Origin: a virus
Virus record (IMG/VR): IMGVR_UViG_3300008261_000125
Coordinates: 31,568-95,567 of that record
Length of the DNA stretch: 64,000 bases
Reading direction: 5' to 3' (one strand)
Shown here: one piece after another, positions 1 to 28,622 of the stretch
Position numbering within the stretch: position 1 is the first letter of the stretch
How the letters are laid out: every line of letters starts with the position of its first letter
Program-made: the position numbers and the translations under genes
The notes under the pieces: model-generated
The model's input: only the letters and a program-made list of their open reading frames with translations
Databases searched by the model: none
Told to the model about the DNA's origin: nothing

Positions 1-3000
1 GATTAGTAGAAGGATCCTCATAAGATTGACTTATTACATAAACTCCATCATCAATTTTAGATACATAAGGTTTATCAAACAAGTAAGTATCTTTACCAGT
101 AGCATCTGCTATTAATTGATTAACTGATCTTTTATAGCTAATACCTCTACCTTTAAGTCTATTGTTTTCAGTTTGATTATTTTGTTTAAAGAACTCATAA
201 AATCCTTCTAGTACCATGTTAGCTTTAGACTCATTTTTATTTAAGAATGTATAGAATGCTTCAGAAGCTTTTTCCATTACAGGTCTATATCTATCATAAG
301 GCATGATACTGTTTAATGAAAATTCACTAGAATCCATACCACTCTGTAGGAAAGCAATCATAGGTAACTGAGCAAAGAACTCACTAATATATGCATTAGC
401 TTGTGCTCTATTAGCTGTTTTCTCAGACACTTTCATTTCTTTAGGATTAGCTAACTTAAGCCACTCATTATAGTATTCTTCACTCAAGTTTTCATCTAAC
501 TCAGTTAAGTTTTTAATCTTAAAGTTAGTTCTTGACATGTGGTTCTTTTTACTACTTATAGAAGATGCAGAAAATTGTCTAACTAAATCAAATTGAAGTT
601 TTAATTCAGGATAGCTTTCAATAATACTAATTAGTTTTCTAGCTGTAGTATGCTCACCAGATCTGAATAACTCATAGTTATTATAAGTATTACTTAATGC
701 TTCATGCATTAATACATACTCATAAACTATTTTGTTTAATCTATTTGTATAATCTTCTTGACTTTCACCTTCTCTTTTAACAAATAAACTAACCCCACTA
801 TTTACAAGTCTGTTTTTAGCACTTTGAAATTCTTTTGTTCCTAATAAAGATTCTAAACTTTTTATCTTTCTTAAATATTCTCTTTCTAAACTGAACTCAA
901 TAAATGATTCAACATCATTTTGATTAAATGCAGATGGATGAATATAAAATAATCCTCTTCTTAAATAAGCTTCATCAGATTTAGAACTAGATAAGTGATT
1001 TTCATTAGCAAAATCACTTCTTAATTGCTCAATACTTTTAACAGGACTGTTCTCATTAAGTAATTCACTAATAGGAGTTTGTTTGTATTCACTAGCACCT
1101 TGTTTATATTGTTTAAGAACATTAGTAAATATGTATAAACTTAAAGCATTTTTAAATCTGTTAATAAATGTTTCTTCATCTAAACCAGTTTCTTGTTTTA
1201 GAATAGCTCTTTCAATTGGATTCTCTAAAGTTTTTATTAAGAATTTATTTACTAAATCATTATCCCTTGTAGCAAATAAGTTTTTACCAAATAATGCTCT
1301 AGAAAATTCTTGAATAAAGAATGATGATATAGCACTCTCTTCTTTGAAATGAACTTTAAGAGAAGAATCTAATGTTTTAAACTTATCAATTTTTTCAATG
1401 TCATGTATTTTAGCTTGAGCTGCAAAGTTATCAACTGCTGATTCTGTATCTACATTAAGATATCCTTTAAGGTTATCAAACTCTTCAATTAAATCTTCAA
1501 TATAAAAATACTGTAATAAACCAGCTATTTGTTCTTTATTAAATTTAAATGATTGTTTTGCTACTTCTTTTAAAGATTCTTTACTAAAAGATACATCTTT
1601 ATATCTTGTATTTAATATTTTATAAAATCCAGCAATATTATTTTTTAATTGATTTCCATCAAGATCTACCATTACTCCTTTAAGTAATTCTTTTCTTGCT
1701 TTATTTTTAGCAGAAGTAGTTGTATTTCTATGTTTAGGACCATAGATTATTTTTGCTAAAGGTGATTTATAATTTATCTTAGATTCAACATATTTTCTAA
1801 TCATAGGATTACTTACAAAATACGCTATATCCTCTATAGGAACACCTGCTTGTAATAAGAATAATGTTTTAGGAATTACTTCCATGTTACCTTGTAAGTA
1901 ACTAATCCATGCATCTTTACCAACATCCACAGCACCATTCATCAATTGAGATAAAATATCAGCTATATTATTAATTTTTTCAGCATCTGTTTTATTAGAT
2001 AAAGAAATAACTTCAATCTCTTTTAATGTTTTACTATCAATTTCTTTAGTTTTATTATAATTAAGTCTTAGTTTAATTGGAACTTTTACAGGTGATAAAA
2101 CTTCACTATCACTATAGTATGGATTTTCTACTTCAAATGAATAATTCATTTTAGCACCAGCCATAGTTAACATATTAGCAAATGTATTATGTAAAGTAAT
2201 AAGTCCTAAAATGTTTTTACCTGTAATATTATCTTGTTGTTTTTTAAGATTGTAAGCATACTCAGTCATTTTAGTAGGACTCACTCCACCACCTGGAGTT
2301 GATTCTCCAGTTTTAATAGATTTAGTATGATCAACTTCATTATCTGCTTTTTGAATATCTTTTTTGAGTGTATTAGATAAAGGTTTAGTTAAATGAGTAT
2401 CATTAGGTTGCATTAATGAGAAAGCCATCTCTGGCATTTCCATAACCCCAATAATATTATCTATAAATTTATTTTGAATAGCAGCAGTAAAGTTTCTCTT
2501 ATGTTCTTTTAAATTAGAAAGTTCATTATAAGCTCTACTTAATTCACTATCTTTTGATATTAATTCAGTAATTAAATTTTCAATTTCAGGATATTTTTCT
2601 GAATCAAATCCTTTAATTTGTTTAGATAAAATTTGATAAGATTCTGGAAGATTCTTTTTAATAAACTCTTGTTCCTTTGGATTACTTAAAGTTTTTAATA
2701 ACTCTTCATTATTATAAGTAGTATAAGCAAAGAACTTTTCTTTAACAAGTCTTTTATGTTTACTTTCTTTTTTAATACTATTTCTAAAGTCATCAAGATC
2801 TTCTTTAATAGTTAATTTATCAGCTTTTAAATCTTTTAATTTAGTTTTTAATTCTTGAATTTTAGCATCTAATTCTTCTGGTGTTTTATAAGTATCACCT
2901 GCAGATGCTGGTAAGAATTCATGTATTTGAACAAACTCAACTGAGTTAGGTCCTTGTGTAGGAATCCTTACACCAGTCATTCTAATAGAGTTTTCATTTT

Positions 3001-6000
3001 CTTTTAACCAAGCTTCATTCTTAATCATTTCATTAAGTCTTATGAAACTTGCATCATAGTCTAATACATATTTAATCTCAGATTCTGTATCAGGGTTCTT
3101 TACATAAACAGCTACTTTATCTGTAGTCTTTTTACCATTAACATAGTAATTAGTAGAGAATAGATTTTGATAGTTATCTGTTAAGGCAACTTTAACCTTT
3201 GCACCTATAGTCTCTTTACTACCATTTGTACTAACAATATATCCACTTAAACCATTAGTACCAAAGTCATCATATTCTTTTGTTTGTTCAATAGTAGGTT
3301 TTTTAAATGATTGTGTAAGAGCAGAAGAAACTTGTACTAAAGGTTCACCTTTAATTTTAAGTTTAATCAATCTATTATTAATAACAGACATTAAAAGTTT
3401 TTCAAGTCTAGCAGCTTGAGGACTTAAACTTAAATCAATTTTCTTGTTAGAACTATATTGAACAAAGTCTATTTCATGATCACTATATCCTTGACTTTTT
3501 AATATATCAACAACATAAGTAATCATGTCATCAATATTACCTTCTGGTAAACCATTTACTTCAGTCCAACCCATTTCTTCTAATAGGTCTTTTCTCATGT
3601 ACTCAGTTAACCTTTTAAGTTGCTTATATACTTGTTGTGTATTTTTATAAGCATTACTGTTTTTTAGCTTTTCAGCTTTAGTTAAACTGTTCCATTCCTC
3701 TTTAGTACCTTTATAATCTATAGGGACACCATTATCAAATAACCCAACATTAAACACTTTACGTAACTGAGTAGATAAAACACTCTTTCCTTTAAAGTAT
3801 TTATTAACTTCTGTTTGATTTTTTAAGTATTCAAAGTAAATAGGATTAGGAGTAAAGTTAATATCTTGATATTCTTTGATATTACTTGTATCACCTTCAT
3901 AAATACTATCACCATTAGTTTTGTCATCAGCTCTTAAGTAAGATCTCTTAGCTCCAGAATCAAATAATGCATAGTCAATGTTTTGAGCCATCATAGCTAA
4001 GTGCATTTTTTCTAAAGGTAATCCTTTAATTACACTAGGAATTAATGGTAATAAACTGAATTTATCAATACTTTGTATAGGATAGTTCTTTAATTCAGTT
4101 ACTAATGGTCCTGCATACTGTAATTTATATACTGGGAATAAATCAGTTAACTCTTCAGGTGTAAGACTTTCTCCTCTAAGTTCTTTTTGGTAAGCAGCTT
4201 CTTGTTGTTCTGTCCAACTATTTTCAAGATTTTTTAAGATTCTATATGAGTCAAATGATATCCATCCTTGACCATCACCATCTTTAATTCCTGTATATGG
4301 TTGTAATAAACCTCCAGTAATATTAGTTTCAGAACCACCTTTACCATATAAAGCTTCGTTAATATCACCTTGATATTTTTTTTCTTTTAACCAATGTCTG
4401 AACATTTCAGCATAATCATCTAAGTAAATACTATCTACTTTACTCTCTTTGATTATTGCTTTGTTACCTTTACCTGTATATAATCTTGACTCAGTTTGAT
4501 TTGGATCTCTTCTTACTAATTTACCACTCTTAACTAGACTATCTTCATATGGTCTTTTTACATGAGTATTAATAAATAGTTTTGCTAGTTCATCAGTAGG
4601 GAAGATTAGACCAGAAGAGTTATAAGTAGGAACCCTTTTTAAACTCTCGTCATTGATATGATTAAATTGAAATCCATCACCAAGCTCTAACAATATAACT
4701 TCATTAGCATGTAAAGAACTGTTTATAGCAAATGAATATAATAAAGCATCTTTAATACTATCAGTTGTAGCTACTTGTCCTTCAGTAAGATGTTCTTCAG
4801 CAATTGATCTTAAGAAATTAGGAACATTATTACCAAAAACTTTATTATAATTATTAACTTCTAATGATTTTTTTGAAGTTTCAAAATAGTTAATAATTTC
4901 TTTTTCAATTTCTTTTCTTAACTCAAGGTTTTTATTTAATAAACTATTTAAAGTAGTTTCATCATTTAACTGACTAGCATACTCATTAATAAGTTTATTT
5001 TTTAATTCACCATCTTTAGTATTTAAGATATCATCAAAATAATCAAACTTAATACCTTTTTCATAAAAGTCTTTAGCTTTAGAATAGTACTCTTTATTGT
5101 CTTTGATTTTTTGAATTCTTCTTAACTCACCTTCTAACTTAGGAATCATTATGTCCATTACTTTATCAAATGGATTATATCCTAATAAGTAATTACCATT
5201 AATATCTTTTAAGAAAGCTTGAGTATCTACATATAAATGGTTATTCTTTTTAAGTGAATAAGTGTTAAGTCTTTTTACTTTAACTCCAGTATAAGTACTT
5301 TTTTCACCATGTCTTACAGCTTCAATATATCCATCTTTTAACATAGAAGCAAAGTCAGTAATAAACTTATCAACTTTGGTCATTGAACCGTGTGAAACAC
5401 CATTACTATCATCAGATAAATCTTCATATTGAGAACCAGTTAAATCTACTAATTCAATACCATTAAGATTATTTCTCTTACCTGTAGTGTCAAATAATGA
5501 ATTCATTATAACACTACCTATAACATGAGGGTTGTTTTCTTTAACTAAATGAGGAACATAACTATAAGCACCACTTTTTAATTCATCTAAAGAACCTGCT
5601 TTCTTTAAAGCATATACAATTTGAGTTAAAGTTGTATTTAATGAGAATGCACTTTTCTTACTTTTTTCTGCAGTAAGTTTCATCCTACTAATGTTTTCTG
5701 TAGAGAACTCAGCATCAATCTTAGCTAATGTATTAACATTAGAAGCTTGATTATCTATAGCACCCTCAATAAACTCACCAGTAGCTAGTTCAATTTTAAT
5801 CTTATTATGTTTTTGACCTAAGAAATTAACTATGTTAGTAATAGGTAATAGGTTTCTTTTTGCTAAGATGTCTTTGTTAGCTTCTGCTAAACCAATAGCA
5901 TTAACAATATAATCAAAAGCTTTTGTAGTATCATCATTAATAGCTTTTCTAACATCATAGTTATCTTCTAAATACATACCTATTGCATTTAAGAATGGAA

Positions 6001-9000
6001 TCTTTAATGATTCATCTTTAATGAAATATTTAGTAATACCTTCTTTACCTATAGCAGAAGATGTTAAAAATTCTTTAACTACTTTACTTAAGTTAAGAGT
6101 ATTTTCTTTATTAGCATTTACAGTAACAAATGGACCTGATTCAGTAGAGAACTTAGCTGGCCATACTTTATTTTTAATTGCTGAGTGATCAGCTGATACT
6201 TTACCTACTACAAAACTAACTTGAGTTTGATTATCAATGGTTTCTTCTTTAAATTTAGAAGTAACTAAATCTTCTCTTTCTAAGTTCAATGATCTGAATA
6301 CACCCATCCAAATTTTAGATGCACCAGCACCTTTATCAGCACCCATAACCACAGTAGGATCACCTAGTTTTTCTAACAACTGAGCAAATAAAGGTGAAGT
6401 ATTTTTAACTGATGCTAGTTTTTTGTATAACTCATCAACTCTTTTTTCACCACCAACTTTATCTATTAAATTGTTAAAGAACTGTTTATGATTAATAGGC
6501 TCAGGAAATCCTAGACTATTTAATATATTAACTCTTTCTCCATTTACAACTTCTTGTTTTAATAAAGTCTTTAGGATGTATGTACAATCAGCAGTAGCAA
6601 GTTCATATGATTCAGTTTCATTACCACCTTCTCTTCCAGATTTAGATAATGGAGACTCATAGTTCTCATCAATCATTTCATTAAATGAACTGTTTTGTAA
6701 ATGGTAAGTAATAAGATCTAACTTATCACCTTTTCCATTTAAAGAATTAGTTGCATCACCATAGTTATCTAAAGCTTTTATTAACAATAAAACATTGTTT
6801 CTTTTATATTTTCTTTCAATCTTATCCCACTTAGTTTTATTATTTTTATCTTTAGCATAATCTGCTTCAAACTCTTTTCTTAAAACATCTAATCTAGATG
6901 CTAATTTCTTTTTAATTGCAGAATTATATAATAAAGTTAATCTCTCTTGTCCTTTTAAGATATTAGCTGCAGCATCATATTTACCTTTTAATAAATAACC
7001 TGTAGTTATATCAGATATAATACCATCCATACTCTTAACAAGTAATGATGCTTCTACTGGAGTAAATATTACAGTACCATCTTTAGCAATTATACCAGAG
7101 TTTAATACACCAAACTCAGCATTGTCCATACTTGGAGTATACATGTTTAATTGTTCAGGACTTTCTGCTGTATATAACTGATTAAACATTTCAGATAATA
7201 TACCTTGAGAACCAGGATTAGAATAAACATTAATATCAGTTGTTCCTTTAAATAATGTTTTTAAGAATTTCCAAACTCTATCAAAGATTCTTGAGAATAT
7301 ATTTGATTTTTCATTTTCAGTTTTGAACTTACCATTGTTCATGGCATATACTCTGAACTCTTCTGCTATAAATTCTTCTAACTCTTTTCTAGAAGCTTCA
7401 GTAAATTCTACTTTAACTGTTTGGATGTTATTACTTTCATTCTTTCTGGTAACAGTGAAGGTGCCTGGTAATTGTCCTACAGCTTCATATAGTTTATTTC
7501 TATCAGCTTTAGATAAATATATCTGACTGAATGCATGCCAAGCCTCATGGTAATTATGAGTGTAATCTGAACCTGCAAACAAAGTAATAGTAGCATTACT
7601 AAAACTAGCCCAAGCATCTGAGTTAACTAAATTAAAAGCTTCTTTTAAAGTAATCAATGGTTTACCATTAGAGTCTTTAGCTTTAGATAATGCACTTTTT
7701 TCCCACCATGTTTTTGCTTTAGCTTTCTGTTCTGGAGTAGCAATACTTTCAATTAACTTAGATCTTAATAAACTTTCTAGTTTATCTTCTTCATCAGTAT
7801 CTTCTTGTATAATTGTTTTAGCATTATTAACTACTTCTTTTACTTCTTGTTCTACTACTGCTGTTTCATTAGTAGGTTCAAAACTGAAATATCCATTAGC
7901 TACTAATGGTCTTTCTGTTGTAGAATCAAAAGCAATTCTGGGGATCATGTTTTGTAAAACATAATCTTTAATGTAATTAATAGGTTGTACACTTACTACA
8001 CCATCTTTAATATTAAATCTTTCAATGGTTACTTTATTTTTTAAATCAGTAGAGAAGTTAGCAAATAGTTTTGCACCCAAAGTTTTTACTAGCTGTTCTT
8101 TAGCTTGTACTTTATCTGATAAATCTAACTGCTGTCCATTTAAACTAATAACAATTTCATTGTTTACTATTGAAAGATTAAATACAGATCTATCTAATTT
8201 ACTAGCATAGTTATTAAAATAACTTTGTCTATCAGCTGGAGATAATGGTTTACCATTTTCATATACTAAATCATCAATCAGTACAGAAATTAAACTATCA
8301 AACAATGATCTATCACCTGCAAGAAGGTTTCTACCTTTTAATGATATAGGTTTATCAATATTGTTTATTTTAATAGATGGTAAGTTTAATGTTTTAACAA
8401 CACCTTTTACCATCATATCAGCATATGCTATTGCAATACTTTCAATTTCAGTATCTGTAAGATTAAATTGACTTAGTGTTTTTTCAACTAAAGATTTGTA
8501 TTGTTTTAATTTTTCAGGATCAGTTATTTTCTTAAATGTCTCATCAGTATTTTCATGATAACCTTTTTTACCACCTGTTATATCTAACAAAATTGGTTGG
8601 TTATCCATTACAGATTTGGATATAAGATCACTTTGTTTTTTTTCTTCATTAACCATTTGGTTAATTTTAGAAATAAGTTCATTTCTTAATCTTGAGTATT
8701 CAAGAGGATCATTTTTAGATTGCTCTCTTAAAGCTGTCTCATTACTTTTTAATAACTCTTCTTTAAGTGCTTTAACTTTAGCATCAGAAGAGTCTTTCAT
8801 ATAGAAGTAAACTATTTTACCATCTTCTTTAGATGTAATCTCACCTTTACTATTAAAGTATAAAAACTCACCTTTGTTATTAGTTAATGCTAGAATTATT
8901 CTCTTAGAACTTAAAGTAGCTCCAGGATATATATTTTTTTCTAAATCAGGTAATGTATTTTCTACTATTGGTTTTAATTTAAAACCTTTATGTCCACTAT

Positions 9001-9625
9001 ATTCTACATTAGAGTAATTAGCATTATCAGTTGTATTAGCTTCTAATACTTTAGTTAATACATTATAGTAAAAGTTTTTACCAGCATTTGTTTTAGTAAA
9101 TATAGGAAGACCTGATACTTCTTCTAACTGTTGACCTGTTGAGTTTTGTAAAGATAAACTAGTTAATATTTTATTAAGAACTAATTCTAATATTTGATTT
9201 TCATTAGATACTTCAGACTGAGTTTCAGGAGTGGTAACACTATTTTCTAATATGACTTTCATACTAGTTTTAGTACCAACTTTAATGTAATTAGCAATTT
9301 CTTTTAAAGGATCCTCTGACTTATTAACTAATAACTCAAAATTTCTTACAGCTTTTAAATCAAAGTTTTTGTCTATTAACTGAGTTAGTAATTTAGGATT
9401 GTCTTCAATAACTTGAAAAAACACTGTAGGAATAACTGCTGCTATTCCTAAAGACTTAGCTTGGTCTTTGTTTTTCTCATAAGCAACATAATAAACATCT
9501 CTTACTACTTCTAATATTTTAAAAGGTTTATCAGGAGTCTTTAAGTTGTTTAAAATCTTATTGTAGACCTGATTAGCAAGAACTTTAGCTAATTCTTTAT
9601 TTTCATCTAAATTACAAATACTCAT
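1..9625 (-). CDS. Giant virion cargo protein, C-terminus outside window (candidate part of the virion RNA polymerase block)
   Basis: This reading frame starts at ATG 9625 and stays open to the left edge, so at least 3208 residues are visible and the stop lies outside. It begins 2 nt after the stop of the 2044-residue gene and closes the row of giant late genes. In crAss-like phages this position holds enormous virion proteins, including the virion-packaged RNA polymerase. By hand translation I see an HExxH zinc-peptidase motif (HEAWH, residues 693-697) and a DGDGQGW motif near residue 1782. I did not find the DxDxD polymerase signature in the visible part, so the catalytic centre, if present, would lie in the missing C-terminus or a neighbouring gene. 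Much of the rest is Lys/Glu/Asn-rich and looks helical. Presence of a gene is certain; the polymerase assignment is only inferred from position. Confidence 0.85.
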   Translation of the reverse strand, partial: MSICNLDENKELAKVLANQVYNKILNNLKTPDKPFKILEVVRDVYYVAYEKNKDQAKSLGIAAVIPTVFFQVIEDNPKLLTQLIDKNFDLKAVRNFELLVNKSEDPLKEIANYIKVGTKTSMKVILENSVTTPETQSEVSNENQILELVLNKILTSLSLQNSTGQQLEEVSGLPIFTKTNAGKNFYYNVLTKVLEANTTDNANYSNVEYSGHKGFKLKPIVENTLPDLEKNIYPGATLSSKRIILALTNNKGEFLYFNSKGEITSKEDGKIVYFYMKDSSDAKVKALKEELLKSNETALREQSKNDPLEYSRLRNELISKINQMVNEEKKQSDLISKSVMDNQPILLDITGGKKGYHENTDETFKKITDPEKLKQYKSLVEKTLSQFNLTDTEIESIAIAYADMMVKGVVKTLNLPSIKINNIDKPISLKGRNLLAGDRSLFDSLISVLIDDLVYENGKPLSPADRQSYFNNYASKLDRSVFNLSIVNNEIVISLNGQQLDLSDKVQAKEQLVKTLGAKLFANFSTDLKNKVTIERFNIKDGVVSVQPINYIKDYVLQNMIPRIAFDSTTERPLVANGYFSFEPTNETAVVEQEVKEVVNNAKTIIQEDTDEEDKLESLLRSKLIESIATPEQKAKAKTWWEKSALSKAKDSNGKPLITLKEAFNLVNSDAWASFSNATITLFAGSDYTHNYHEAWHAFSQIYLSKADRNKLYEAVGQLPGTFTVTRKNESNNIQTVKVEFTEASRKELEEFIAEEFRVYAMNNGKFKTENEKSNIFSRIFDRVWKFLKTLFKGTTDINVYSNPGSQGILSEMFNQLYTAESPEQLNMYTPSMDNAEFGVLNSGIIAKDGTVIFTPVEASLLVKSMDGIISDITTGYLLKGKYDAAANILKGQERLTLLYNSAIKKKLASRLDVLRKEFEADYAKDKNNKTKWDKIERKYKRNNVLLLIKALDNYGDATNSLNGKGDKLDLITYHLQNSSFNEMIDENYESPLSKSGREGGNETESYELATADCTYILKTLLKQEVVNGERVNILNSLGFPEPINHKQFFNNLIDKVGGEKRVDELYKKLASVKNTSPLFAQLLEKLGDPTVVMGADKGAGASKIWMGVFRSLNLEREDLVTSKFKEETIDNQTQVSFVVGKVSADHSAIKNKVWPAKFSTESGPFVTVNANKENTLNLSKVVKEFLTSSAIGKEGITKYFIKDESLKIPFLNAIGMYLEDNYDVRKAINDDTTKAFDYIVNAIGLAEANKDILAKRNLLPITNIVNFLGQKHNKIKIELATGEFIEGAIDNQASNVNTLAKIDAEFSTENISRMKLTAEKSKKSAFSLNTTLTQIVYALKKAGSLDELKSGAYSYVPHLVKENNPHVIGSVIMNSLFDTTGKRNNLNGIELVDLTGSQYEDLSDDSNGVSHGSMTKVDKFITDFASMLKDGYIEAVRHGEKSTYTGVKVKRLNTYSLKKNNHLYVDTQAFLKDINGNYLLGYNPFDKVMDIMIPKLEGELRRIQKIKDNKEYYSKAKDFYEKGIKFDYFDDILNTKDGELKNKLINEYASQLNDETTLNSLLNKNLELRKEIEKEIINYFETSKKSLEVNNYNKVFGNNVPNFLRSIAEEHLTEGQVATTDSIKDALLYSFAINSSLHANEVILLELGDGFQFNHINDESLKRVPTYNSSGLIFPTDELAKLFINTHVKRPYEDSLVKSGKLVRRDPNQTESRLYTGKGNKAIIKESKVDSIYLDDYAEMFRHWLKEKKYQGDINEALYGKGGSETNITGGLLQPYTGIKDGDGQGWISFDSYRILKNLENSWTEQQEAAYQKELRGESLTPEELTDLFPVYKLQYAGPLVTELKNYPIQSIDKFSLLPLIPSVIKGLPLEKMHLAMMAQNIDYALFDSGAKRSYLRADDKTNGDSIYEGDTSNIKEYQDINFTPNPIYFEYLKNQTEVNKYFKGKSVLSTQLRKVFNVGLFDNGVPIDYKGTKEEWNSLTKAEKLKNSNAYKNTQQVYKQLKRLTEYMRKDLLEEMGWTEVNGLPEGNIDDMITYVVDILKSQGYSDHEIDFVQYSSNKKIDLSLSPQAARLEKLLMSVINNRLIKLKIKGEPLVQVSSALTQSFKKPTIEQTKEYDDFGTNGLSGYIVSTNGSKETIGAKVKVALTDNYQNLFSTNYYVNGKKTTDKVAVYVKNPDTESEIKYVLDYDASFIRLNEMIKNEAWLKENENSIRMTGVRIPTQGPNSVEFVQIHEFLPASAGDTYKTPEELDAKIQELKTKLKDLKADKLTIKEDLDDFRNSIKKESKHKRLVKEKFFAYTTYNNEELLKTLSNPKEQEFIKKNLPESYQILSKQIKGFDSEKYPEIENLITELISKDSELSRAYNELSNLKEHKRNFTAAIQNKFIDNIIGVMEMPEMAFSLMQPNDTHLTKPLSNTLKKDIQKADNEVDHTKSIKTGESTPGGGVSPTKMTEYAYNLKKQQDNITGKNILGLITLHNTFANMLTMAGAKMNYSFEVENPYYSDSEVLSPVKVPIKLRLNYNKTKEIDSKTLKEIEVISLSNKTDAEKINNIADILSQLMNGAVDVGKDAWISYLQGNMEVIPKTLFLLQAGVPIEDIAYFVSNPMIRKYVESKINYKSPLAKIIYGPKHRNTTTSAKNKARKELLKGVMVDLDGNQLKNNIAGFYKILNTRYKDVSFSKESLKEVAKQSFKFNKEQIAGLLQYFYIEDLIEEFDNLKGYLNVDTESAVDNFAAQAKIHDIEKIDKFKTLDSSLKVHFKEESAISSFFIQEFSRALFGKNLFATRDNDLVNKFLIKTLENPIERAILKQETGLDEETFINRFKNALSLYIFTNVLKQYKQGASEYKQTPISELLNENSPVKSIEQLRSDFANENHLSSSKSDEAYLRRGLFYIHPSAFNQNDVESFIEFSLEREYLRKIKSLESLLGTKEFQSAKNRLVNSGVSLFVKREGESQEDYTNRLNKIVYEYVLMHEALSNTYNNYELFRSGEHTTARKLISIIESYPELKLQFDLVRQFSASSISSKKNHMSRTNFKIKNLTELDENLSEEYYNEWLKLANPKEMKVSEKTANRAQANAYISEFFAQLPMIAFLQSGMDSSEFSLNSIMPYDRYRPVMEKASEAFYTFLNKNESKANMVLEGFYEFFKQNNQTENNRLKGRGISYKRSVNQLIADATGKDTYLFDKPYVSKIDDGVYVISQSYEDPSTN

Positions 9626-9627
9626 AA

Positions 9628-12600
9628 TTAACAAATGTTATCTTGTATATCTTTTTTAAGTTCATCTTCTGATTTCTCTGTGTAAGTTATATTAACATTT
9701 TTAATAGCTGATTGATTTTGTACTGCTGTATCAATATCCTCTTTACTATTTTGTATTCCTTGGATGTCAATTATTGATTTAATTTCATTAGGAATGTTTT
9801 CTGTTTTTACACTGATATCACCAGATAATCCTGATAAAGATACAGAATTTTCTTTTATTTCCTTTATTATATATCTACCATTTTTCTCTGGATTATCAAC
9901 TGATTCATACATAACTTCATAATTTCTGTCTTTAGCAACCTGAAGACTGTTAATGTTAATATTCTGATTTAATGTTTCTATAGTAGCTTGTTTACTCTCT
10001 GGTACTTCTACTTTAGCTTTTTCATTTTTAGGTGTACTCTCTCTTATATATGTAAGAACATTTCCATTATATAATACTTCAATTACATCAGTAGAAGGTT
10101 TGTCACCAACTGCTTTTTTAATCTTTTGTATAGTAACCTTTTCTCCAATAGGTAACTTGTTATCTTTAAAGAATTGAGTTACTCTTACTACTCTACCATC
10201 ATCTAACACTACATGATATGAACTCTCATCAGCTGCATTAGGATATACACCTTTTTGAAATACACCACTAAGTTGCTCACCTGGCTTAAGTTCATCAACA
10301 ATAGTTTTAAATTTCTTTTCTATTGATAACTCATTAAATTCTCCTACAGGTTTACCTTTTAAAGCTTTTAGTTCTGCATCATATCTAGTATTGATTTTAG
10401 TTACTTTGTTACCTAAGTGAGTACTTCTGTACTTTTCACCTTTTTCTTCATATCTTCTTTGGTCAAAAGTATTGTAACCTATTTTTGGTTCTAAAGATGT
10501 TTCAACTGTTTCAATAACTTTTCCATCTTTAACAATAGCAAGTTTTACATCTTTCCCTTTTACTTGCTCATTAGTATCATAAACATTTCCAGCAGAATCA
10601 ACTACATATAACTTTTTACCATCTTGCCTATTTTGTGCAGAAAGAAAATCTTGTTCTTGTTGTACATTTTTAAACTTAACAAATACAATTAAGTCATTAG
10701 GTTCATTTTGTTCTCCAGTAGCTGTTTTAAATCTTTGTGTTCTACCATCAGGTAACACAGTATAAACACTTCCTTTAGCTGTTTCAAAACTTTCTATATC
10801 AGCTTTCTTATCAGAAACAGTACCTTCTAAAGCAGCTAGTTCTGCATCGTAATCTCTATATGCAATAGCTTCTGCTTTTCTTATTCTATTACTAGCAAGA
10901 TTTTCAAATAGTTCAGAATCAGTAAATCCTTCTGAACCCATTGCTTTTCCTGTATCTGACACCACAGCTATTATCCAAGTCCATAATCCATTTTCTTTTC
11001 TTTTAGCCCTCCCAACTTTTACAGTACCATCAGATTGTTTTTTACTTATAAGAATTTCATCTTTTCCTTCAATATCTTCAATTTGAACTGGTCCAGAAGG
11101 TTTAACTTCTACAAATTGTCTATCAGACCCGTTAAAAAGAGTTGTTTTATTTAAATTTTTTAAATCTTCTTGTCTTCTCTCTTCTATATCAGCTTTCTTA
11201 GCTTTTAAATCTGTAGTAGTTTCGGTTCCAGTTGGTACTGGAGCTGCTACTTCTAATTTAGAAGGGATGTATTTATTTACAATCTCTTTAAATTCATTAT
11301 AATTAATCTTTGTTTTACTTGCTCTTGGTTCTTCTGTTAATGAGGTAATATTACCATCTAAATCTTCTTTTGTTTTAAAAGCTATAAGTTCTAAGTTAGT
11401 TACTTTTATTCCTGTAGTATTCTCTAATAAGTTTTTATATAGAGAAAGCTGTAGGGAATATTTTTCTTTCTTAGCAGACTTATCACTTTTGTTTCCAAAG
11501 TATTCCCATTTTGAACTAGTTTTCATGTCATATATTTTGTATTCTCCACCAGGAGTAACTACAAGTAAATCCATTTCACCAGCTATAGTTTGAGGCTTAC
11601 CATTTACTTCATTAGTTGTAACACCAGATAACACTAATCCACTAGCAACTACAACTTCATTTTGTTCAGCTAATTGTTGATCAAATTCAATTAATTTAGT
11701 TCTTAAATTGTTAAAAGCTGTCTCACTCATATTTGATGGTTTTATAAGTTCAACACCCTCAAAATAATCACGGACTAATTTATCTACAACATTACCTCTA
11801 ATTGTAGTTTCTTCATAAATATATTTTTCAAATAGCTTTTTAAAATTATCATTTGAAGTATTAGACTTAAGTTCTTCTTTAAATAGTTTTAATTTTCTAC
11901 CATTAAATTGTTTATTAAATAACTCTTGAGCTTTTTGTTTAGCTTCATTATCTTTATTATCTGCTAAATCTTTTTTAATAAATTCAAATATACTGTCTAC
12001 ATATGCTTCTCTATTTTTAGCATTTGCTTTAACAGTATCATCTTCTTGAGCTTTTATATAAGCATCAAGAATAGGAGCAGCAGATTTTTCAAATACAGCA
12101 AACTTGCTATAATCTGGATAATTTTCTTCTAAGATTTGATCAATAAGTTTTGTTACTCTAGTGTCTTTCTTTTCACCATTGATAATATAATTATTATCAA
12201 CTTTATCTTTATTAACTGTTCTCTTAGATAAAGCTTTAACAAGAGCTAATGCATTTTCTTGTTCAGGTGTCATTTTAATTGACAATCTGATTTTATAGTT
12301 AAGTGCTTGTTTAACTTTATTTAATTCATTTAAAACACTAGGTTCAGTTTTATATTTTTCTAAAAGCTCTTTATGTTTATTTTCAAGTTCCTTAAGTGTT
12401 AAGTTTAAATACTCTTGAAACTCAGCTGTTTTTTCATTTAGTATTTCTTTTTCTAATTGTTTTTTGAAATCATCAACAATATTTTTACCAGCTGGAAACT
12501 GTGTAGAAAATTCTTCAATAGTCATTTCATCACTAATATCTCCTGCTTTAATTAAAGCATTGTATTTTTCTTCTAGTTTAGCTTTAAGTTCATCAGGGTA

Positions 12601-20154: not shown

Positions 20155-21825
20155 TTAATCCCAGTTATGCAAAGGTTTACGTGAACTTGATGTTTTAACT
20201 TCTTCAACATCAGTTACAGCTTTAGCTGCAGGTTTTTTTATAATTTTTACATTTTCAACAACAGGTTTAGCTACAGGAGTTTTTCTAATATTAGTTACAA
20301 CATTCTTTGTAGTTACTTTTGTTTTTGGAGTTATTTTATTAACTTTTTTACTATTTAATGCATTAGGATGTTGAATAGCTTTTTCAGCTTCTTCTCTTAA
20401 TATTTTATTTTGTAATTGAAGATTTTTAATTTCTTTATCTTTTTTTTGTTCTTGACCATATCCTTGTAAAGATCTTGTTCCAATATTAACAACAAATCCA
20501 GGAGGCATTTTTTCAGCAATTTTTGGAGCATTTTCTATAACATAGTCAATACCTTTTTTACCATATTTATTAATAGCATCTATACCAGCTTCACCATATT
20601 TTTGGACTAGCTCGTATCCTTTTGTACCATATTTTTGTAAAAATTTTCCTACTTCAGGGCCATACTTTAATGCTGCTTGACCTATTTGTTTAGCATACTG
20701 AACAGGTGCAGTATAGGCTTTTGCACCAAACCAAGTTGTAGGATCAGCAGCAACATCTGTATAAATGTTTCCTGTACTTTCCCATTCACCTGTTAATAAA
20801 TTATTTACACCATATAATGGAGCATTTAACATATTGGCTGCATAATCTATAACACCTTCTGAATTTGCTGGATTTAATTTAGCAACAAATTGATTAAGTT
20901 TTTTCTTACTTGGATTTTCTACTACACCTTTTCCTGATTTAGGTGGTGGAGCAAATTCATACATATCTCCTGACCATCTTTTCCCTACTTTTTCAGCGTA
21001 ATCTTCTATAGATTTAAGATCAAAATAACCATGTTCTTGTTTAAGATTACCTTCTTCATCAAATCTATCACCAGAACCACTTACCCATTCAGACTCTTCA
21101 GCAATATTTAATTTAGGTTTACTTTTTCTAAACTTATCTCTTTCTGCATATGTTTTACCATAATTTTCATTAATTAGTTTATTATTATTAGTATATTGAT
21201 CTAAGAGATATTTAGGTATTTTTTCACCTGATTCATTATATTGCCCAAATTGTTTTAGTAAATTTCTTTCTTTAGTTTCTAAAATCTCTAAAGAAGGTAT
21301 ATAACTTTTTTTGGCTCCACCTTTTTGTTTTGTATCAAACTGAGATATCATATTTCCACCATATCTAGCTTCACCTGTATCAGCATCTGGTTCTTCTTCT
21401 TGAGACTGAGTAGGTAAATAGCTAGAAGGATCAATGTCATTCTCAATGATATATGGCATAGCAATAGCAGGTATACCTTGAGGGAAACCTTTCATTGATT
21501 CTTGAATTAAAGCAAGTTTAGCTAACTTTAAATTGTAGTTAGATATCATTGCTTCTGCAGTTTTTCTTTGTAAATCTTCAGAATTAGGATCAGCAAGTAT
21601 TTGTCTGAACTTATTAATATCAAACTTCTTAGCTATTTCAGCTGGAGTATATCCTGCTTTTTTAGGAACCATTCCAAACTGAGCTATTATAATAGGATCC
21701 TTTATTTTCATCTTAGCTGTATCACTAAAAATAAAAGAGTTATCAGGAAGGTTTAATGGTGTACCACCTTGACTATGTCTTTTACCACCAATCTTAAAAT
21801 GAGCTGGTAATCCTCCTAAACTCAT
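20155..21825 (-). CDS. Internal virion (cargo) protein, 556 aa from ATG, probably longer at the N-terminus
   Basis: The first ATG is at 21825, but 19 further codons in the same frame (21826-21882) read as plausible protein (GANLEAEKGETAV runs straight into MSLGGLPAHFKIGG). They are preceded directly by the TAA stop of the upstream 1431-residue gene in the same frame. The N-terminal domain (IGGKRHSQGGTPLNLPDNSF) resembles a domain I associate with crAss-like cargo proteins. In that domain the NLEAEKGE segment would be expected to be included, so either a non-ATG start or readthrough is possible. Residues about 370-440 carry repeated KYG motifs (KYGPEVGKFL, KYGTKGYEL, KYGEAGI, KYGKKGI), a helical repeat that may be membrane-active. 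The C-terminus is Lys/Pro/Val-rich and probably disordered. Confidence 0.8.
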   Translation of the reverse strand: MSLGGLPAHFKIGGKRHSQGGTPLNLPDNSFIFSDTAKMKIKDPIIIAQFGMVPKKAGYTPAEIAKKFDINKFRQILADPNSEDLQRKTAEAMISNYNLKLAKLALIQESMKGFPQGIPAIAMPYIIENDIDPSSYLPTQSQEEEPDADTGEARYGGNMISQFDTKQKGGAKKSYIPSLEILETKERNLLKQFGQYNESGEKIPKYLLDQYTNNNKLINENYGKTYAERDKFRKSKPKLNIAEESEWVSGSGDRFDEEGNLKQEHGYFDLKSIEDYAEKVGKRWSGDMYEFAPPPKSGKGVVENPSKKKLNQFVAKLNPANSEGVIDYAANMLNAPLYGVNNLLTGEWESTGNIYTDVAADPTTWFGAKAYTAPVQYAKQIGQAALKYGPEVGKFLQKYGTKGYELVQKYGEAGIDAINKYGKKGIDYVIENAPKIAEKMPPGFVVNIGTRSLQGYGQEQKKDKEIKNLQLQNKILREEAEKAIQHPNALNSKKVNKITPKTKVTTKNVVTNIRKTPVAKPVVENVKIIKKPAAKAVTDVEEVKTSSSRKPLHNWD

Positions 21826-21882
21826 TACAGCTGTTTCACCTTTTTCTGCTTCAAGATTTGCACCTTCTCTAGCAATATTTTT

Positions 21883-24800
21883 TTAATAGCGTTGTACTGT
21901 GTATCCTAATTTTTGTAATCTATCAATCTCATCTTCATCAATATCTGCTTCATAATACTCATCATCTTCATCTGAGGAACCTCCCATAGCATAACCACCA
22001 TATCTCATTGCTGGTTGCATTTGTTCTTGCTCAGGTTGTTGTTGTTCAGACATTTGTAATTGGTTAATTACAGTATCAATTATTTCAGAAGCTTGTTCTT
22101 CAGGTAAACCCATTTCAACAAGTTGTTCTAAAATCTGTTCTGATTCAGCACCTTGTTGTAACATTTGTGCAACACCTTGCATGATTTGTTGTTCTCTACC
22201 ATCTTGTTGTTGCATACCTCCATCTTGCATAAAGCCACCATAAGCTGCTACAGATTGTCCATGAAATTGTACAGGTGTATGATCCCGTGATCTTAACCTA
22301 CCTGAATTAATTTCAGTATCACCTTGACTTATTGCATTTTCTGGAGTTTTTATTTTTGCATTATCTGCTACTGTAGATGCTTTAAGATTTCTTTTATTAG
22401 GTGCTACCTCTGATATTTGTTCTAAACCACTTGAAATCATATCTGCTCCGGTAATTTCCCAATTAGCCATAGCCTCTTGGTTAAATTTAGGTTTACTCTT
22501 TTCAGTTATTTCAACTTGTTTTTCATCTCTACCCATACCTTTCATTTCAATATTTTTATGTTGTAACCCAACTGATTCGGGTGTAGAGTATGCTGGTTGA
22601 GAAGCACCTTGATAAGATATATTTGAAGGTGCTGCACCTGGAGCATTACCAGATGGTTGAAAAGGAGAACCTTGATTAGAAAATAAAATAGGATTAGAAG
22701 ATACTCCTAAATTACCAGTTGAAGATTGAACACCAACTTGAGCTTTTGCTAATCCTCCATATTCTTTTTGTCTAGCTCTATTTTTAAATTTTTTAAGTAT
22801 TTCTGCATCTAATGGATTTTTACTATCTAATACCATTAATGTATCTGATGTAGGGAAAACTTTTGCTATATCATCATAAGAAGCTTCTGCTACATTAACA
22901 CATCCATAAGAAGTACATCTCATGTTAGGATTTTGAGAGTTTAATTTTTTCATCCTTTCTACAAATACAGGATCTTTAGGATTAAATGCATTATCTGAAT
23001 AGACTCTATGAAAACCTAAATCATTAGCAGCAGGAGCAGGTTGACCATAAGCAGATATAGGATTCATATCTCTTGTTTTTCCTTTATAAGCTTTTTTAAT
23101 ATAATTATAATATGAACCTGGTTTACCTAGACTTCCATCATCTTCCTCAAGAACCATTGTTTTTAAATCAGGGTGTGTTAAAGCAGGTTTTCCTAAAGTA
23201 TAATAACCAACTGGAGTAGCTCTTAATGATGGGTTATTTGCTAATTGTATTAAATTATAAGGATTATAATTAGATTCAACATTTGAACCAGTTAATACAG
23301 GAAATGAACCTGCTTGTCCTTTGTCTCCAATATAATAAGCTTGATTAGTTCTTTTATCAACTACTACTCCAGATTGAGGGGCTTTTCTTTTATCTACTTT
23401 ATTTTGAGTTAATTTTTTAGCAGATGGACCAAAAGGATTTTGATAAATATGGTTTAAGTTATTAGTTACTGCAGGCATTGGAGAACTGCTTTTAACATTT
23501 GATTTTTCTGGTAATGTTCTTGGAGCAGGAACTGCTTTAACAGGAGTCTTTACTCCTTTTGTAGGTTTAGTTTCTGATTTAACTTTACTTACATTTTCTT
23601 TATTTACAACTTTTGGTTTATTATCAGATGTATTTCTATAAGAAATTTTAGTAGGATTAGCAACATCATTCAATATATTTGCTAAATTAACTTCTGGTTC
23701 TTCTTGTTGCATTTGAAGTACTTTTGCTTGAATAGCATTCATAATCTCAGGGTGATATGCTTCATCATTATTTTCATATGCTTCATCATTATTTTCAAAA
23801 GCATTACCATGATTAAATGGGTTCATCATCATCTCAACAGTCTGACCTTGAGGTCCTATTCTTGATGATTTAAATCCTCCATCTTGGTAGAATCCACCAT
23901 ATCTTTGTATTCTTGGGCCAGATTGAGGAATCATTGCTTCTTTTTGGAAATTATAATTTGTTTCTACATTATTTACTGGATTAGCAGGGTTATTCTGATA
24001 AGCATTTATTTCATCCATTACTTGATCTTCATCAATATCTTTATATCCAAAATTATAATGACCTTGAACTGGTATATTATTTTGAACTGGTGGAGTGTAT
24101 TGAGAATAAGAAGGATTTAACATATCATTTGCATACTGTTCAAAATCCATATCTTTATAATTCTCTCTTTGTCTAGGTAAAGATTGTAATTTATTTTTTA
24201 ATTCAGCTGCTCTTCTTTCTGGCATATCTTCTACAGTATGCACTGCAGGGAATCCTTCAGTAAATCCTCTTGGTTGTACTTGTATAGGATCACCTTTATA
24301 TTCACTATATGGAGTTTGATCTTTATAACCAAATTTCATTTTAGTTTTACTCCATGGTCCAAAATGTCTATGACTAAACTCTCTAAGATTACTACTAGGG
24401 TTGTTAGCTAATTTCTTTAAAGCTTCTACATCACTAGAAGAAATTGAATGTTTATATCCATAGTTCATTGGAAAATACCTCATACCATATCCTTGGTTAT
24501 AGTAATGAGCTGGATAACCATATTGTTGAGGAGCATAGCCATAAGGATAATAATCTCTTTTTGGTTGTTTTTGTGACTCTTGATATTGAGATATTATTTG
24601 ATCTAATAACTTTTCTCTTTCTGCTGCTTTTTTATTAACCTCAGTTTCTTTAGTATCTTTTGTTTCAATACCTTCTTGTGCTTTAACTTCTTTAACTTTA
24701 GTTTTATCTTTAGTACCCATGGTGTTAAATACATCCATAGTTGAACTACCTAAGTTAGCAGCTGCTTGACTTAATCCTGCTTGACCTTGATTAATGTTTT

Positions 24801-26178
24801 GTTGTAACATTTGTTGGTAAGCTTGATTTTGAGGATTAAGTTGTGGACCACCCATTTGCTTGTATTGTTCAAGCATGCTGTTTCCTTCTTCCTCTACTAA
24901 TGAATTATGTAAATTAGTTTTAATAGCATTATCAAATTCTTCTCTTCTTTTACCTGGATAGTCTGTAGCATTACCTCCTTGCATTACTGTATCTCCACCT
25001 TTAGAGAATAGTTTCTTTTTAGCTTTCTTTAGGTTGTTTATTAAGCTGTAGAAGGATCCACCTTTCTCAAACTCATTACCACCTTCTTGAAATACAGGAT
25101 ACTCATCCATATTAGATTGGTCTAACATTCCACCATATTCAGTATTAGGAAATGCACCATAGTTCATAGGAGAAGCAACATCACCTCCATCATCCATATA
25201 TCCACCACAATTCATACATGGCATTTCATTAGCACCATTAGGTAAACCTCCACCATAAGCAAAACCAGTAGAACCAGCCATTGTAATAGGATTATCTGTT
25301 GCTGAACCAATTGGTGTATTAATTCTTGTTTGTTTTAATGTACCTTCAGCACCAGGAGCACCTTGTATAAAATTAGCTACATAGTCTCCTTTATCAGTAT
25401 ATGATTTAGCAGGATCAATTTCTTGCCCTGTCTTTTTATCAAAGTATCTTCTTGTAGGATTTGCATAACCAGAATTAACATCAGGATACATATATGAATC
25501 ATAATTTTGACTTTGATTACCTGGAGATGAAAACCATTTTCTATCTATTTTATCTTGATCTTTTAAAGGAGTTGGTTGAGGTTTAGAAATAGAAGTTGCA
25601 GGAGTTGTTTGAGCTGTTTCAGTATAAACTGGTTTATAATATTGTTCAAAATCTTTAGCAGCATCTTTAGATATATGACCAGCTTCAACTAATGATTGAG
25701 GACTAACTCCAGATTGTAATCTACTTATCATTGATTGCTTCCAATCACCACTTGTACCAGAACCACTTCCAGGACTACTAATAGCTTTATCAGCTTTCTT
25801 ATCATAGAATGTTTTACTTCCTACAGAACCTAACATATTATATCCTGGTTCTACAGTAGATACTTTAGTAGCACCTCTAGGTTCTTCTTTTAATACAGGA
25901 GGATTTGGATTATTCATCCCTCCTGGTTCAAAATACCCACCATAAGCAAAATTACCAAATGGTATATTTAAATTACCATATGTAGGATCTCCAAAACTGA
26001 AGAACTCATCAGCAGTAGGTTGTCCATTGTGAGGAGCACCACTTAGTGATCCACCATGTTTCATTTGCTTATAACTTTCCCAATCTTCTTTAGTTGGAAA
26101 CTCTTTATAAAAAGCAGCTTTGCCTTCTGGGGTATTTGGAAACCCTGCTTCTGCTAAAATTTCATCTATCTTGCTCAT
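21883..26178 (-). CDS. Large virion cargo protein with L,D-transpeptidase (YkuD)-like domain
   Basis: From ATG 26178 it encodes 1431 residues. A TTG six bases upstream is in frame, but it forms part of a promoter-like box, so I prefer the ATG. Residues about 960-1120 form an L,D-transpeptidase-like domain: PQSGVVVDKRTNQAYY, GTPVGYY-type segment (ATPVGYYTLG), H1057 in LGFHRVYSD, and the catalytic-type C1093 in CTSYGCVNV. The canonical SHGC has become SYGC, and the His-Cys spacing is wider than usual. The rest is low-complexity, Tyr/Gln/Asn/Pro-rich, with many Gly-Gly motifs of the form YGG and QDGG. It probably remodels or cuts peptidoglycan during genome entry. The C-terminus is very acidic. 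The following 556-residue ORF continues in the same frame after the TAA stop. Confidence 0.85.
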   Translation of the reverse strand: MSKIDEILAEAGFPNTPEGKAAFYKEFPTKEDWESYKQMKHGGSLSGAPHNGQPTADEFFSFGDPTYGNLNIPFGNFAYGGYFEPGGMNNPNPPVLKEEPRGATKVSTVEPGYNMLGSVGSKTFYDKKADKAISSPGSGSGTSGDWKQSMISRLQSGVSPQSLVEAGHISKDAAKDFEQYYKPVYTETAQTTPATSISKPQPTPLKDQDKIDRKWFSSPGNQSQNYDSYMYPDVNSGYANPTRRYFDKKTGQEIDPAKSYTDKGDYVANFIQGAPGAEGTLKQTRINTPIGSATDNPITMAGSTGFAYGGGLPNGANEMPCMNCGGYMDDGGDVASPMNYGAFPNTEYGGMLDQSNMDEYPVFQEGGNEFEKGGSFYSLINNLKKAKKKLFSKGGDTVMQGGNATDYPGKRREEFDNAIKTNLHNSLVEEEGNSMLEQYKQMGGPQLNPQNQAYQQMLQQNINQGQAGLSQAAANLGSSTMDVFNTMGTKDKTKVKEVKAQEGIETKDTKETEVNKKAAEREKLLDQIISQYQESQKQPKRDYYPYGYAPQQYGYPAHYYNQGYGMRYFPMNYGYKHSISSSDVEALKKLANNPSSNLREFSHRHFGPWSKTKMKFGYKDQTPYSEYKGDPIQVQPRGFTEGFPAVHTVEDMPERRAAELKNKLQSLPRQRENYKDMDFEQYANDMLNPSYSQYTPPVQNNIPVQGHYNFGYKDIDEDQVMDEINAYQNNPANPVNNVETNYNFQKEAMIPQSGPRIQRYGGFYQDGGFKSSRIGPQGQTVEMMMNPFNHGNAFENNDEAYENNDEAYHPEIMNAIQAKVLQMQQEEPEVNLANILNDVANPTKISYRNTSDNKPKVVNKENVSKVKSETKPTKGVKTPVKAVPAPRTLPEKSNVKSSSPMPAVTNNLNHIYQNPFGPSAKKLTQNKVDKRKAPQSGVVVDKRTNQAYYIGDKGQAGSFPVLTGSNVESNYNPYNLIQLANNPSLRATPVGYYTLGKPALTHPDLKTMVLEEDDGSLGKPGSYYNYIKKAYKGKTRDMNPISAYGQPAPAANDLGFHRVYSDNAFNPKDPVFVERMKKLNSQNPNMRCTSYGCVNVAEASYDDIAKVFPTSDTLMVLDSKNPLDAEILKKFKNRARQKEYGGLAKAQVGVQSSTGNLGVSSNPILFSNQGSPFQPSGNAPGAAPSNISYQGASQPAYSTPESVGLQHKNIEMKGMGRDEKQVEITEKSKPKFNQEAMANWEITGADMISSGLEQISEVAPNKRNLKASTVADNAKIKTPENAISQGDTEINSGRLRSRDHTPVQFHGQSVAAYGGFMQDGGMQQQDGREQQIMQGVAQMLQQGAESEQILEQLVEMGLPEEQASEIIDTVINQLQMSEQQQPEQEQMQPAMRYGGYAMGGSSDEDDEYYEADIDEDEIDRLQKLGYTVQRY
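23755..23796. repeat. Perfect 2 x 21-bp tandem repeat inside the 1431-residue cargo gene
   Basis: Two identical 21-bp units abut (23755-23775 and 23776-23796) and encode a duplicated ENNDEAY peptide. The copies are identical at every base, which points to recent slippage duplication in a low-complexity part of the protein. Confidence 0.9.
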
Positions 26179-26212: not shown

Positions 26213-28622
26213 GCCAATTAGTAGATTCCCCACCATCTTGGTACTTTAAATTTGGTTTATATCTTCTTTTACCAGAAGGTCCATAAATAGTTTCATTTCT
26301 TAACATAATATCATTTATGCTAGTTTGAATATTTTTAGATGTAAATCTTTTTAAACCTTTTTGACCACCTTTTTTAAACTCATCTTCATACTCATCCAAC
26401 CATTCTCCACCTTCTTCTTTCTTCATTCTTTTTTTAGCTTGATTTAAGAGTTTTAAATCTTTAGGTCTTTTACTATCAATTACCATAAGTGTATCAGGAT
26501 TAGGAAACATCTTATTTATTTTATCATAAGAATTATCTCCAACATTTACACAACCATAAGAACCACATCTTAATTTAGGATCTGCTTGTCTTAATAATTC
26601 TAATCTTTTATTATACTCAACATCATCAGCATTATAAGCATCATCTGCATAAAGTCTGTGAAAAGCTAAATTAGCAGCACTAGGAGCTGCTTGCCCATAT
26701 GCAGGAATTGGATTTAAATATCTAATTTTAGATTTATAATTAACATCTTCATCATCACCTTTAACAGGAGTTAATTGTTTTTCTAAATTATAATAACCTA
26801 CTGGAGTACCTCTTAATTTACGGTTTTGTGCTAGTTGCTCTACAGTATATGGGTTTACATTTAAATCAGGGTTAGCACCTGTCATTACATTAAAAGAAAG
26901 TGTTTTACCATTATCTCCTACTGCATAAGCAATGTTAGTTCTTTTATCAACTACTACTCCAGATTGAGGTATCTTTCTATTGTCTTTATAAACTATAGGA
27001 TATTTTTCTCCTGAAGCTAATCTGTTATCATAATATTCAGGATGATAACCACCTCCTACTTGATACTCATCTAACCATCCTCCATTTTTAAAAGTTTTTG
27101 ATAAACTTAAACCCTGATAATCTGGAGAAATATTTGCCCCTATAGATATATCATTATTTAATTGATAATTTGCACCCACATATGGATTTATAATACCTGT
27201 TTGTTCAAATGTTTTAATAGGTATATAATTTCCAATATTACCTGTTAGTTTTCCTTTACCAAAAGATAATCCTAAATCTTTATATGATTCTCCTAACCAG
27301 TTCATATTTTCATTCCATCCTTCTAATAATTTATTTTCTGAAAGGTTAAATTTTGGAATAATATCTATTTGTCTTGGTTTATTATGTATATTATTTATAC
27401 CTCCTTTTTGCATATGAGTATGAGTCTTAGTGTTCTGTCCACCAAAAGGATAATGACCTGTTATGTTAGGTAGAGAAGGATCTCCACCATAAGCTACTGT
27501 ATTTAAGTCTTTAGTTTGATTATTTTTAGCTAAAGTATTAAGCATATCAATAATGGTATCATCATCATAATAAAATCTAAGATCAGAAATAGGTAGTTTA
27601 ATAGATTTATTATCAAGTATAGATTTATTTACTTTTTGACCAGGCTTTAAATTAAGAGTTCTTCTAATATCCATTATTCTAGGATACATACCATCTTTAT
27701 CTAAATATTTTTTTTGTTTTTCAAACTCGCTATAAATACCAGGATATTTTTGTTTTGCTTTATCAAAAGAATCATAGACTTTATTATAATTATCATCAAA
27801 ATTATAATCTCCATACATCTCTACAAATTTTTTATCAGAATTTTGTTTCTTATCTAAATAGTTGCTCAATATAACATCCTCCATAGTTTTTTGCAAAGGG
27901 CCTGCACCATGTGTTTGTTCATGAGTAATTACTCCTGGATTATTAAAAGTATTAACCATTGATACATGGTAATTAGGTATATAAACACCAAGTTCTCCAG
28001 GATCACCTGAAAAATAAGGATTACTTGAAGAAATATTACTAGGTGTTTTCCATCCTTGTAAAGAGTTATTATATTCTATATCATTTTGACTAACATCAGC
28101 TTTTTTTACTAACTCTCTACTAAACATTGGTAAAGCATTAAGTTTGTTTATAACTTCTTTTGTTAAAATTTTTGGATTTATATCATTAGTAAGAATATTT
28201 GACTTTAAGTTTTTACTTAATCTTTTTTGTGTTTCTGGATGCTGCAACCAATTGACTAAAAAAGGATCTACATCAGGTGCCATCTTATATGTACTTTGTA
28301 CATCATCTGTATTATTCCACCAGTCACTTATAGGATTACCTTTTTGCTTACCTTTCTGAGCCATAGGTATTTCAGTAACATACTGTCCTGGAAACTGATA
28401 GTCCATACCAGGATACATCATCTGACCATAACCTAAGTCATCTTCTCCATATACAGGGTAATTTACACCCTGCATTGTTATATCATTAGAAGGAATTTTA
28501 GTTACTTGTCCAGGGTATTTCCACTGACCTAAGTTAGTATATTGTACATCATCCTTATATGGATCTGTTTTACCTTTTGGTTTAACTATGTACTCATTTC
28601 TAGGTATCTTATTCTGTTTCAT
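26199..28622 (-). CDS. Virion cargo protein with HExxH metallopeptidase motif and L,D-transpeptidase-like domain
   Basis: An 807-residue protein paralogous in part to the next gene. Residues 234-238 are HEQTH within PGVITHEQTHGAG, a zinc-metallopeptidase signature. Residues about 565-720 repeat the L,D-transpeptidase-like domain of the 1431-residue protein: PQSGVVVDKRTNIAYAVG, GTPVGYYNL, H655 in LAFHRLYAD and C691 in CGSYGCVNVG, with the same 36-residue His-Cys spacing. Gly-Gly motifs (MQKGG, YQVGGG, FKKGG, YQDGG) recur as in its neighbour. The gene overlaps the stop of the 1684-residue gene by one base. The likely role is cell-wall remodelling on entry, with the peptidase perhaps processing cargo or wall peptides. 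Catalytic activity is inferred from motifs only. Confidence 0.85.
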   Translation of the reverse strand: MKQNKIPRNEYIVKPKGKTDPYKDDVQYTNLGQWKYPGQVTKIPSNDITMQGVNYPVYGEDDLGYGQMMYPGMDYQFPGQYVTEIPMAQKGKQKGNPISDWWNNTDDVQSTYKMAPDVDPFLVNWLQHPETQKRLSKNLKSNILTNDINPKILTKEVINKLNALPMFSRELVKKADVSQNDIEYNNSLQGWKTPSNISSSNPYFSGDPGELGVYIPNYHVSMVNTFNNPGVITHEQTHGAGPLQKTMEDVILSNYLDKKQNSDKKFVEMYGDYNFDDNYNKVYDSFDKAKQKYPGIYSEFEKQKKYLDKDGMYPRIMDIRRTLNLKPGQKVNKSILDNKSIKLPISDLRFYYDDDTIIDMLNTLAKNNQTKDLNTVAYGGDPSLPNITGHYPFGGQNTKTHTHMQKGGINNIHNKPRQIDIIPKFNLSENKLLEGWNENMNWLGESYKDLGLSFGKGKLTGNIGNYIPIKTFEQTGIINPYVGANYQLNNDISIGANISPDYQGLSLSKTFKNGGWLDEYQVGGGYHPEYYDNRLASGEKYPIVYKDNRKIPQSGVVVDKRTNIAYAVGDNGKTLSFNVMTGANPDLNVNPYTVEQLAQNRKLRGTPVGYYNLEKQLTPVKGDDEDVNYKSKIRYLNPIPAYGQAAPSAANLAFHRLYADDAYNADDVEYNKRLELLRQADPKLRCGSYGCVNVGDNSYDKINKMFPNPDTLMVIDSKRPKDLKLLNQAKKRMKKEEGGEWLDEYEDEFKKGGQKGLKRFTSKNIQTSINDIMLRNETIYGPSGKRRYKPNLKYQDGGESTNWLDDI

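Follow-up and report, generated by a model that had tools for sequence, protein, structure and literature searches.

A cargo-region gene of a putative crAss-like phage that lacks the ATG and about 61 N-terminal codons found in its relatives

Introduction

The closest described counterparts of the locus studied here come from crAss-like and related phages. According to PMC10172136, gp45 and gp46 of crAss001 are cargo proteins, with one part of gp45 located in the tail and another on the portal. Cargo protein 1 (gp45, crAss_CARG1, PF25725) occupies a similar genome place to our gene, after a large tail protein, and shows a short likeness to its domain around FSD-x-M-x-I, within the portal-bound domain of gp45. 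Membership of crAss_CARG1 was rejected (hhalign probability 6; the BFVD match to a protein of that name reached only E 0.22), and PF25725 gave no match in the virus record or in 44 family members, the control gp45 matching at 2.3e-66. The same domain was found in WOZ57299.1, annotated as a structural protein of csAssE-Sib (OR575929.1), with a profile probability of 96 and an E value of 3.8e-9. The gene for this protein comes after one annotated as muzzle, its product starts with MKLRIIKNRP, which resembles the N-terminal motif of the relatives described below, and the match starts at profile position 5, upstream of the first methionine of our gene. In WOZ57299.1 the domain lies at residue 249, behind a long N-terminal part with its own Met, whereas our gene has no such part. 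Finally, Foldseek matched the domain model to the structural protein S0A572 of Cellulophaga phage phi4:1 (E 1.3e-3, probability 1.00), at a low TM-score (0.38 of the query) and 14% identity.

Source of the sequence and database searches

The window, i.e. the whole stretch of 64,000 nucleotides that was analysed, is part of a virus record of 95,567 bases. The phage is uncultured and is read as crAss-like because its capsid protein shares 21-27% identity with those of csAssE-Sib, Cellulophaga phage phi4:1 and cr106_1, and because portal, terminase and head genes were found by PHROGs. The two genes considered here are labelled "cargo" by their genome place. The sole full-length match of note for the major capsid protein gene (50838-52463) was Leptolyngbya phage Lbo-JY46 (27% over 99%), which ranks above the Bacteroidetes phages. 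A frame on the minus strand (1-9637) that is open for about 3200 codons runs off the window start and adjoins an ORF of 2044 aa.

In the literature library searched, no paper on this junction was found. PHROGs and Pfam gave nothing for the 575-aa protein encoded after the junction, PDB gave nothing at E 0.001 or better by fold, and PDB by sequence was also rejected. The phage collection returned no match for the DNA, the 575 aa or the 1431 aa of the upstream product, and one record for an 81-aa query. The whole 575-aa protein retrieved 13 pattern matches and no relative from the viral contigs, where a short junction query succeeded. Five weak loci in genome contigs matched only from query residue 21 onwards and are uninformative on the junction.

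The TAA at the junction of the two genes

The upstream cargo-region gene (21883-26178, minus strand, ATG at 26178) comprises 1431 codons and a TAA at 21883-21885. As the first-pass annotation had pointed out, the same frame stays open after this stop, for 575 codons (20155-21882, minus strand), the first ATG lies at 21825, and the 19 codons in between read KNIAREGANLEAEKGETAV. Taken alone, the shared frame and the openness of these codons are compatible with chance: 19 open codons are expected with a probability of about 0.17 at the base composition of the window, 17-18 open codons precede the first ATG in three other long ORFs among the 30 examined, and upstream stop and downstream Met share a frame in 24 of 75 relatives, the third given by chance. 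These 75, out of 84 distinct relatives, are those in which an ORF of 150 codons or more lies upstream and ends near the start of the downstream gene.

The sequence context points to the TAA as the ordinary end of the upstream gene. The upstream protein ends ...LGYTVQRY* in a conserved C-terminal part (EIDRLQKLGYTVQRY, 21886-21930, minus strand) that fits the motif G[GYAW]x[VIFLY][EDQKNT], present in the last 10 residues of 66 of the 75 relatives and of the window protein, and absent from nine; this motif and the N-terminal one below were both written after the data had been seen. In L005 and L006, parts of whose upstream gene are matched by that of the window as far as the stop, the homologous gene has its stop at the corresponding position, and the gene behind it is in the same frame. 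The stop-to-Met gap in the 75 relatives ranges from -1 to 83 nt (median 8). TAA stands at this point in 72 of them, and it is also the terminator of 27 of the 30 window ORFs with at least 150 aa.

Conservation and predicted fold upstream of the first methionine

A 71-aa query starting at the first post-stop codon retrieved 66 viral loci (best identity 83%), 42 of which match from query residue 1-10; one of the 42, L064, is weak and of another kind. From a second, alignment-based scan the best 80 of 332 matches were kept, and the counts of relatives given here rest on the matches listed. Of the resulting 152 loci, 127 matched a 141-aa query. Eight whose match started within the domain were set aside, namely L045, L046 and their repeats L099 and L100 (contigs beginning inside the domain) and L048, L049, L050 and L152 (other kinds), and copies with identical 600 nt were counted once, which left 84 distinct relatives and the window.

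Among these listed matches, all 84 relatives align through the 19-codon segment, none begins at the Met without similarity upstream of it, and the Glu residues at the columns of query residues 11, 13 and 16 are found in 85 of 85 sequences, window included. The residues upstream of the Met are conserved by more than chance, in agreement with what had been suspected from the window alone. The conserved part comprises the last 16 codons (AREGANLEAEKGETAV, 21826-21873, minus strand), which form the putative start of a folded domain, while the first three (KNI) are the counterpart of the spacer between the genes, reading TNI in L005 and INI in L006; an Ile at the column of the KNI isoleucine is also found inside the protein in 3 of the 85 sequences. 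The domain of the family (L005-L151) is recognised by the three Glu (EAExGE) and a GGKRHSxGG block, both of which are present in the window.

The AlphaFold2 model of the window protein, made from 68 sequences and with a mean pLDDT of 86.3, has high confidence from its first residue on, with block means of 80-98 up to residue 160; the ordered domain would span 21403-21882 (minus strand). Strands are predicted at residues 10-12 and 17-22, so that Met20 lies within a predicted strand, as proposed earlier for a methionine inside a domain. Behind the junction, the remaining open frame (20155-21873, minus strand, TAA included) has no stop or frameshift, and residues 42-537 of its product match L045/L046 at 42% identity.

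For the 16 codons before the Met, dN/dS against five relatives was 0.09-0.17, similar to the 0.08-0.22 of the 52 codons after it. In a simulation from the window codons, five free substitutions changed at most one residue with a probability of 0.04, which suggests that the segment has not drifted for long. This constraint does not choose between a recent deletion, continued translation and an artefact, all of which fit equally well.

The missing start codon and N-terminus

What the first-pass annotation had not described is the absence of the start itself. There can be hardly any doubt that, compared with its relatives, the downstream gene lacks its ATG and about 61 codons. Alignment with L005 and L006 places the missing stretch, about 183 nt with the ATG included, between 21874 and 21873 (minus strand). 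L005 reads *TNI-MARVRITKRVPK...TEVRDTLQPV-ARDGANLEAE and L006 *INI-MARVRITKRVPK...-AREDANLEAE, and the window reads *KNI-AREGANLEAE. An in-frame Met further upstream is present in all 84 distinct relatives among the matches listed and is missing from the window; at least 47 open codons precede the anchor Glu in each of the 84 (median 68), compared with 12 in the window. A further characteristic of the family, the N-terminal motif M-x0-5-[KRQ][VIAL][KRQ][IVL] before the domain, occurs in 76 of the 84 relatives (eight are without it) and is absent from the window. The N-terminal peptides of nine relatives gave no convincing match elsewhere in the virus record.

In the model of L072, from the same contig as L005, the blocks of residues 1-50 have mean pLDDT values of 45-61, order in the domain sets in at about residue 51-60, and values exceed 90 from residue 61. 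Since the corresponding stretch is mostly disordered in L072 and the window domain is predicted to be folded from residue 1, the deletion would spare the fold. On the other hand, the N-terminal motif is found in 76 of the 84 relatives, so its loss may harm. The downstream gene may accordingly use an unusual start codon, be defective, or reflect an assembly error.

Candidate translation starts and origin of the truncated gene

Our tentative first choice is a natural deletion, after which the truncated protein would begin at AUU (21876-21874). Compared with the relatives, the missing stretch begins at the old start codon, spares the spacer and reaches as far as the onset of the folded domain, leaving the spacer remnant AAA AAT ATT (21874-21882, minus strand) between the TAA and the domain. 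Within this remnant the ATT (21874-21876), now flanked by the old A-rich leader and the domain, would be a candidate non-ATG start, and ribosomes terminating six bases earlier at the TAA might assist initiation there. In this way the phage would produce the domain without its N-terminal tag. AUU can initiate translation in bacteria, as in infC; we know of no AUU start for this phage.

The start codons were compared by means of a leader profile built from 30 window starts, all ATG and picked as the first ATG. On this scale the leader of the ATT scores -0.54, within the range of the 30 genes (9 of 30 are lower), and its 20-nt leader contains one G, where real leaders contain 0-3. The earlier suggestion of a non-ATG start, with ATT named as an example, hence stays a candidate, with several qualifications: a score as good is reached by 13.5% of 347 internal ATT codons, the AAT one codon before scores higher (3.59 vs -0.54), and, with the old leader left in place, a start-like leader would be expected anyway.

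The origin of the junction was also searched for in repeats. In six relatives the start and domain regions share no exact repeat of at least 7 nt, and a direct-repeat deletion was therefore rejected. ATT (3 nt) is common to the L005 spacer and the domain start of L085, in which Ile-Ala-Arg-Glu-Gly occurs inside the protein, so the ATT of the window may derive from either side as a 3-nt micro-homology. About 160 nt before the anchor Glu, L079 carries ATGGCTAGAGAAGG, which has an 11-nt word in common with the window junction.

An assembly error or a minority defective genome is nearly as likely, the natural gene then having its own ATG like the relatives and the stretch having been dropped by the assembly or in one strain. 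The truncated state occurs in 0 of 84 relatives, a degenerate pattern of the junction matched 0 other viral contigs, so that a single contig has it, no near-identical record was found (best 83% among the matches listed), and the 16 codons show no decay. Against an assembly error, the join keeps the reading frame and sits precisely at the border of spacer and domain, the 3-nt ATT shared by the L005 spacer and the L085 domain start would permit a natural micro-homology deletion, and the lack of an exact flanking repeat of at least 7 nt in six relatives leaves nothing for a short-read assembler to obviously collapse. Initiation at the AUU, assisted by ribosomes that terminate at the TAA, is still considered the likeliest live mechanism. 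That a truncated virion protein is truly made from this AUU, behind the previous stop and from a leader without a Shine-Dalgarno sequence, is doubtful; it would mean that the conserved N-terminal tag is dispensable and that a new start arose by deletion alone.

A start at the first in-frame ATG (21823-21825, minus strand), giving a protein of 556 residues, is unlikely, even though it is the sole nearby ATG and the frame is open. Its leader, unlike a start, scores below those of all 30 other genes and contains five G, and 78% of 241 internal ATGs score as well or better; the protein would, moreover, drop the three Glu found in 85 of 85 sequences and cut the predicted strands 10-12 and 17-22.

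Readthrough of the TAA into a fusion of about 2000 residues, raised in the first-pass annotation, is very improbable: the frame is shared and fused forms exist in L076 and L079, but the TAA lies at the conserved C-terminus of the upstream protein and is the main stop of the window, a shared frame (24 of 75) would arise by chance in one case out of three, and the ARAGORN search found no tRNA in the window, L003 or L004. Programmed readthrough was rejected, as homologues end at the point of the TAA and the two fused relatives are joined elsewhere. Stop-codon reassignment has been described in crAss-like phages (PMC9523058, PMC11210395); a reassignment of the Crassvirales type was rejected here, the TAA being neither rare nor interrupting and closing 27 of 30 ORFs of at least 150 aa.

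If the deletion is natural, the gene would have been caught just after the loss of its start and N-terminal tag, and would offer a case in which the loss of a start codon at a junction of coupled genes can be tested. Should the junction turn out to be an assembly error, it would serve as a warning that gene callers quietly give a 556-residue protein with a cut domain.

Fused relatives and lability of the gene boundary

In L076 and L079 both cargo-region genes form one ORF, the N-terminal part of which matches the upstream gene of the window. They are joined within the old C- and N-terminal parts, elsewhere than at the window junction, and they lack the upstream C-terminal motif while keeping the downstream N-terminal residues missing in the window. 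Descent of the window from such a fused gene, split again by the TAA, is highly unlikely: fusions do occur in two of the nine rows of its clade, but the window keeps the C-terminal motif absent from L076 and L079, which argues that it is not a fusion plus a stop, and it is without the N-terminal residues that they retain. The proposal of a recently split gene also finds no support: the closest relatives whose junction is complete (L005-L010) have two genes and the same end.

In the tree, L076 and L079 fall in the nine-row clade of the window (97/90). L076 pairs with L078, in which the genes are separate, and the fusion therefore probably arose twice. The tree label "fused" (at least 180 open codons upstream, 18 of 79 rows) is loose; of 19 loci that reach this threshold, L076 and L079 alone have a match to the upstream gene, so the tree is uninformative on the other rows with this label. 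The gene boundary would thus be labile, with two separate genes in most relatives, one fused gene in L076 and L079, and a truncated gene in the window.

The upstream gene also contains an L,D-transpeptidase-like (YkuD) domain (22606-23394, minus strand; E 4.7e-5), with 42% identity over 276 aa to one in the neighbouring 807-aa protein (26226-26984, minus strand). The matches to the upstream gene in L005 and L006 skip the YkuD stretch.
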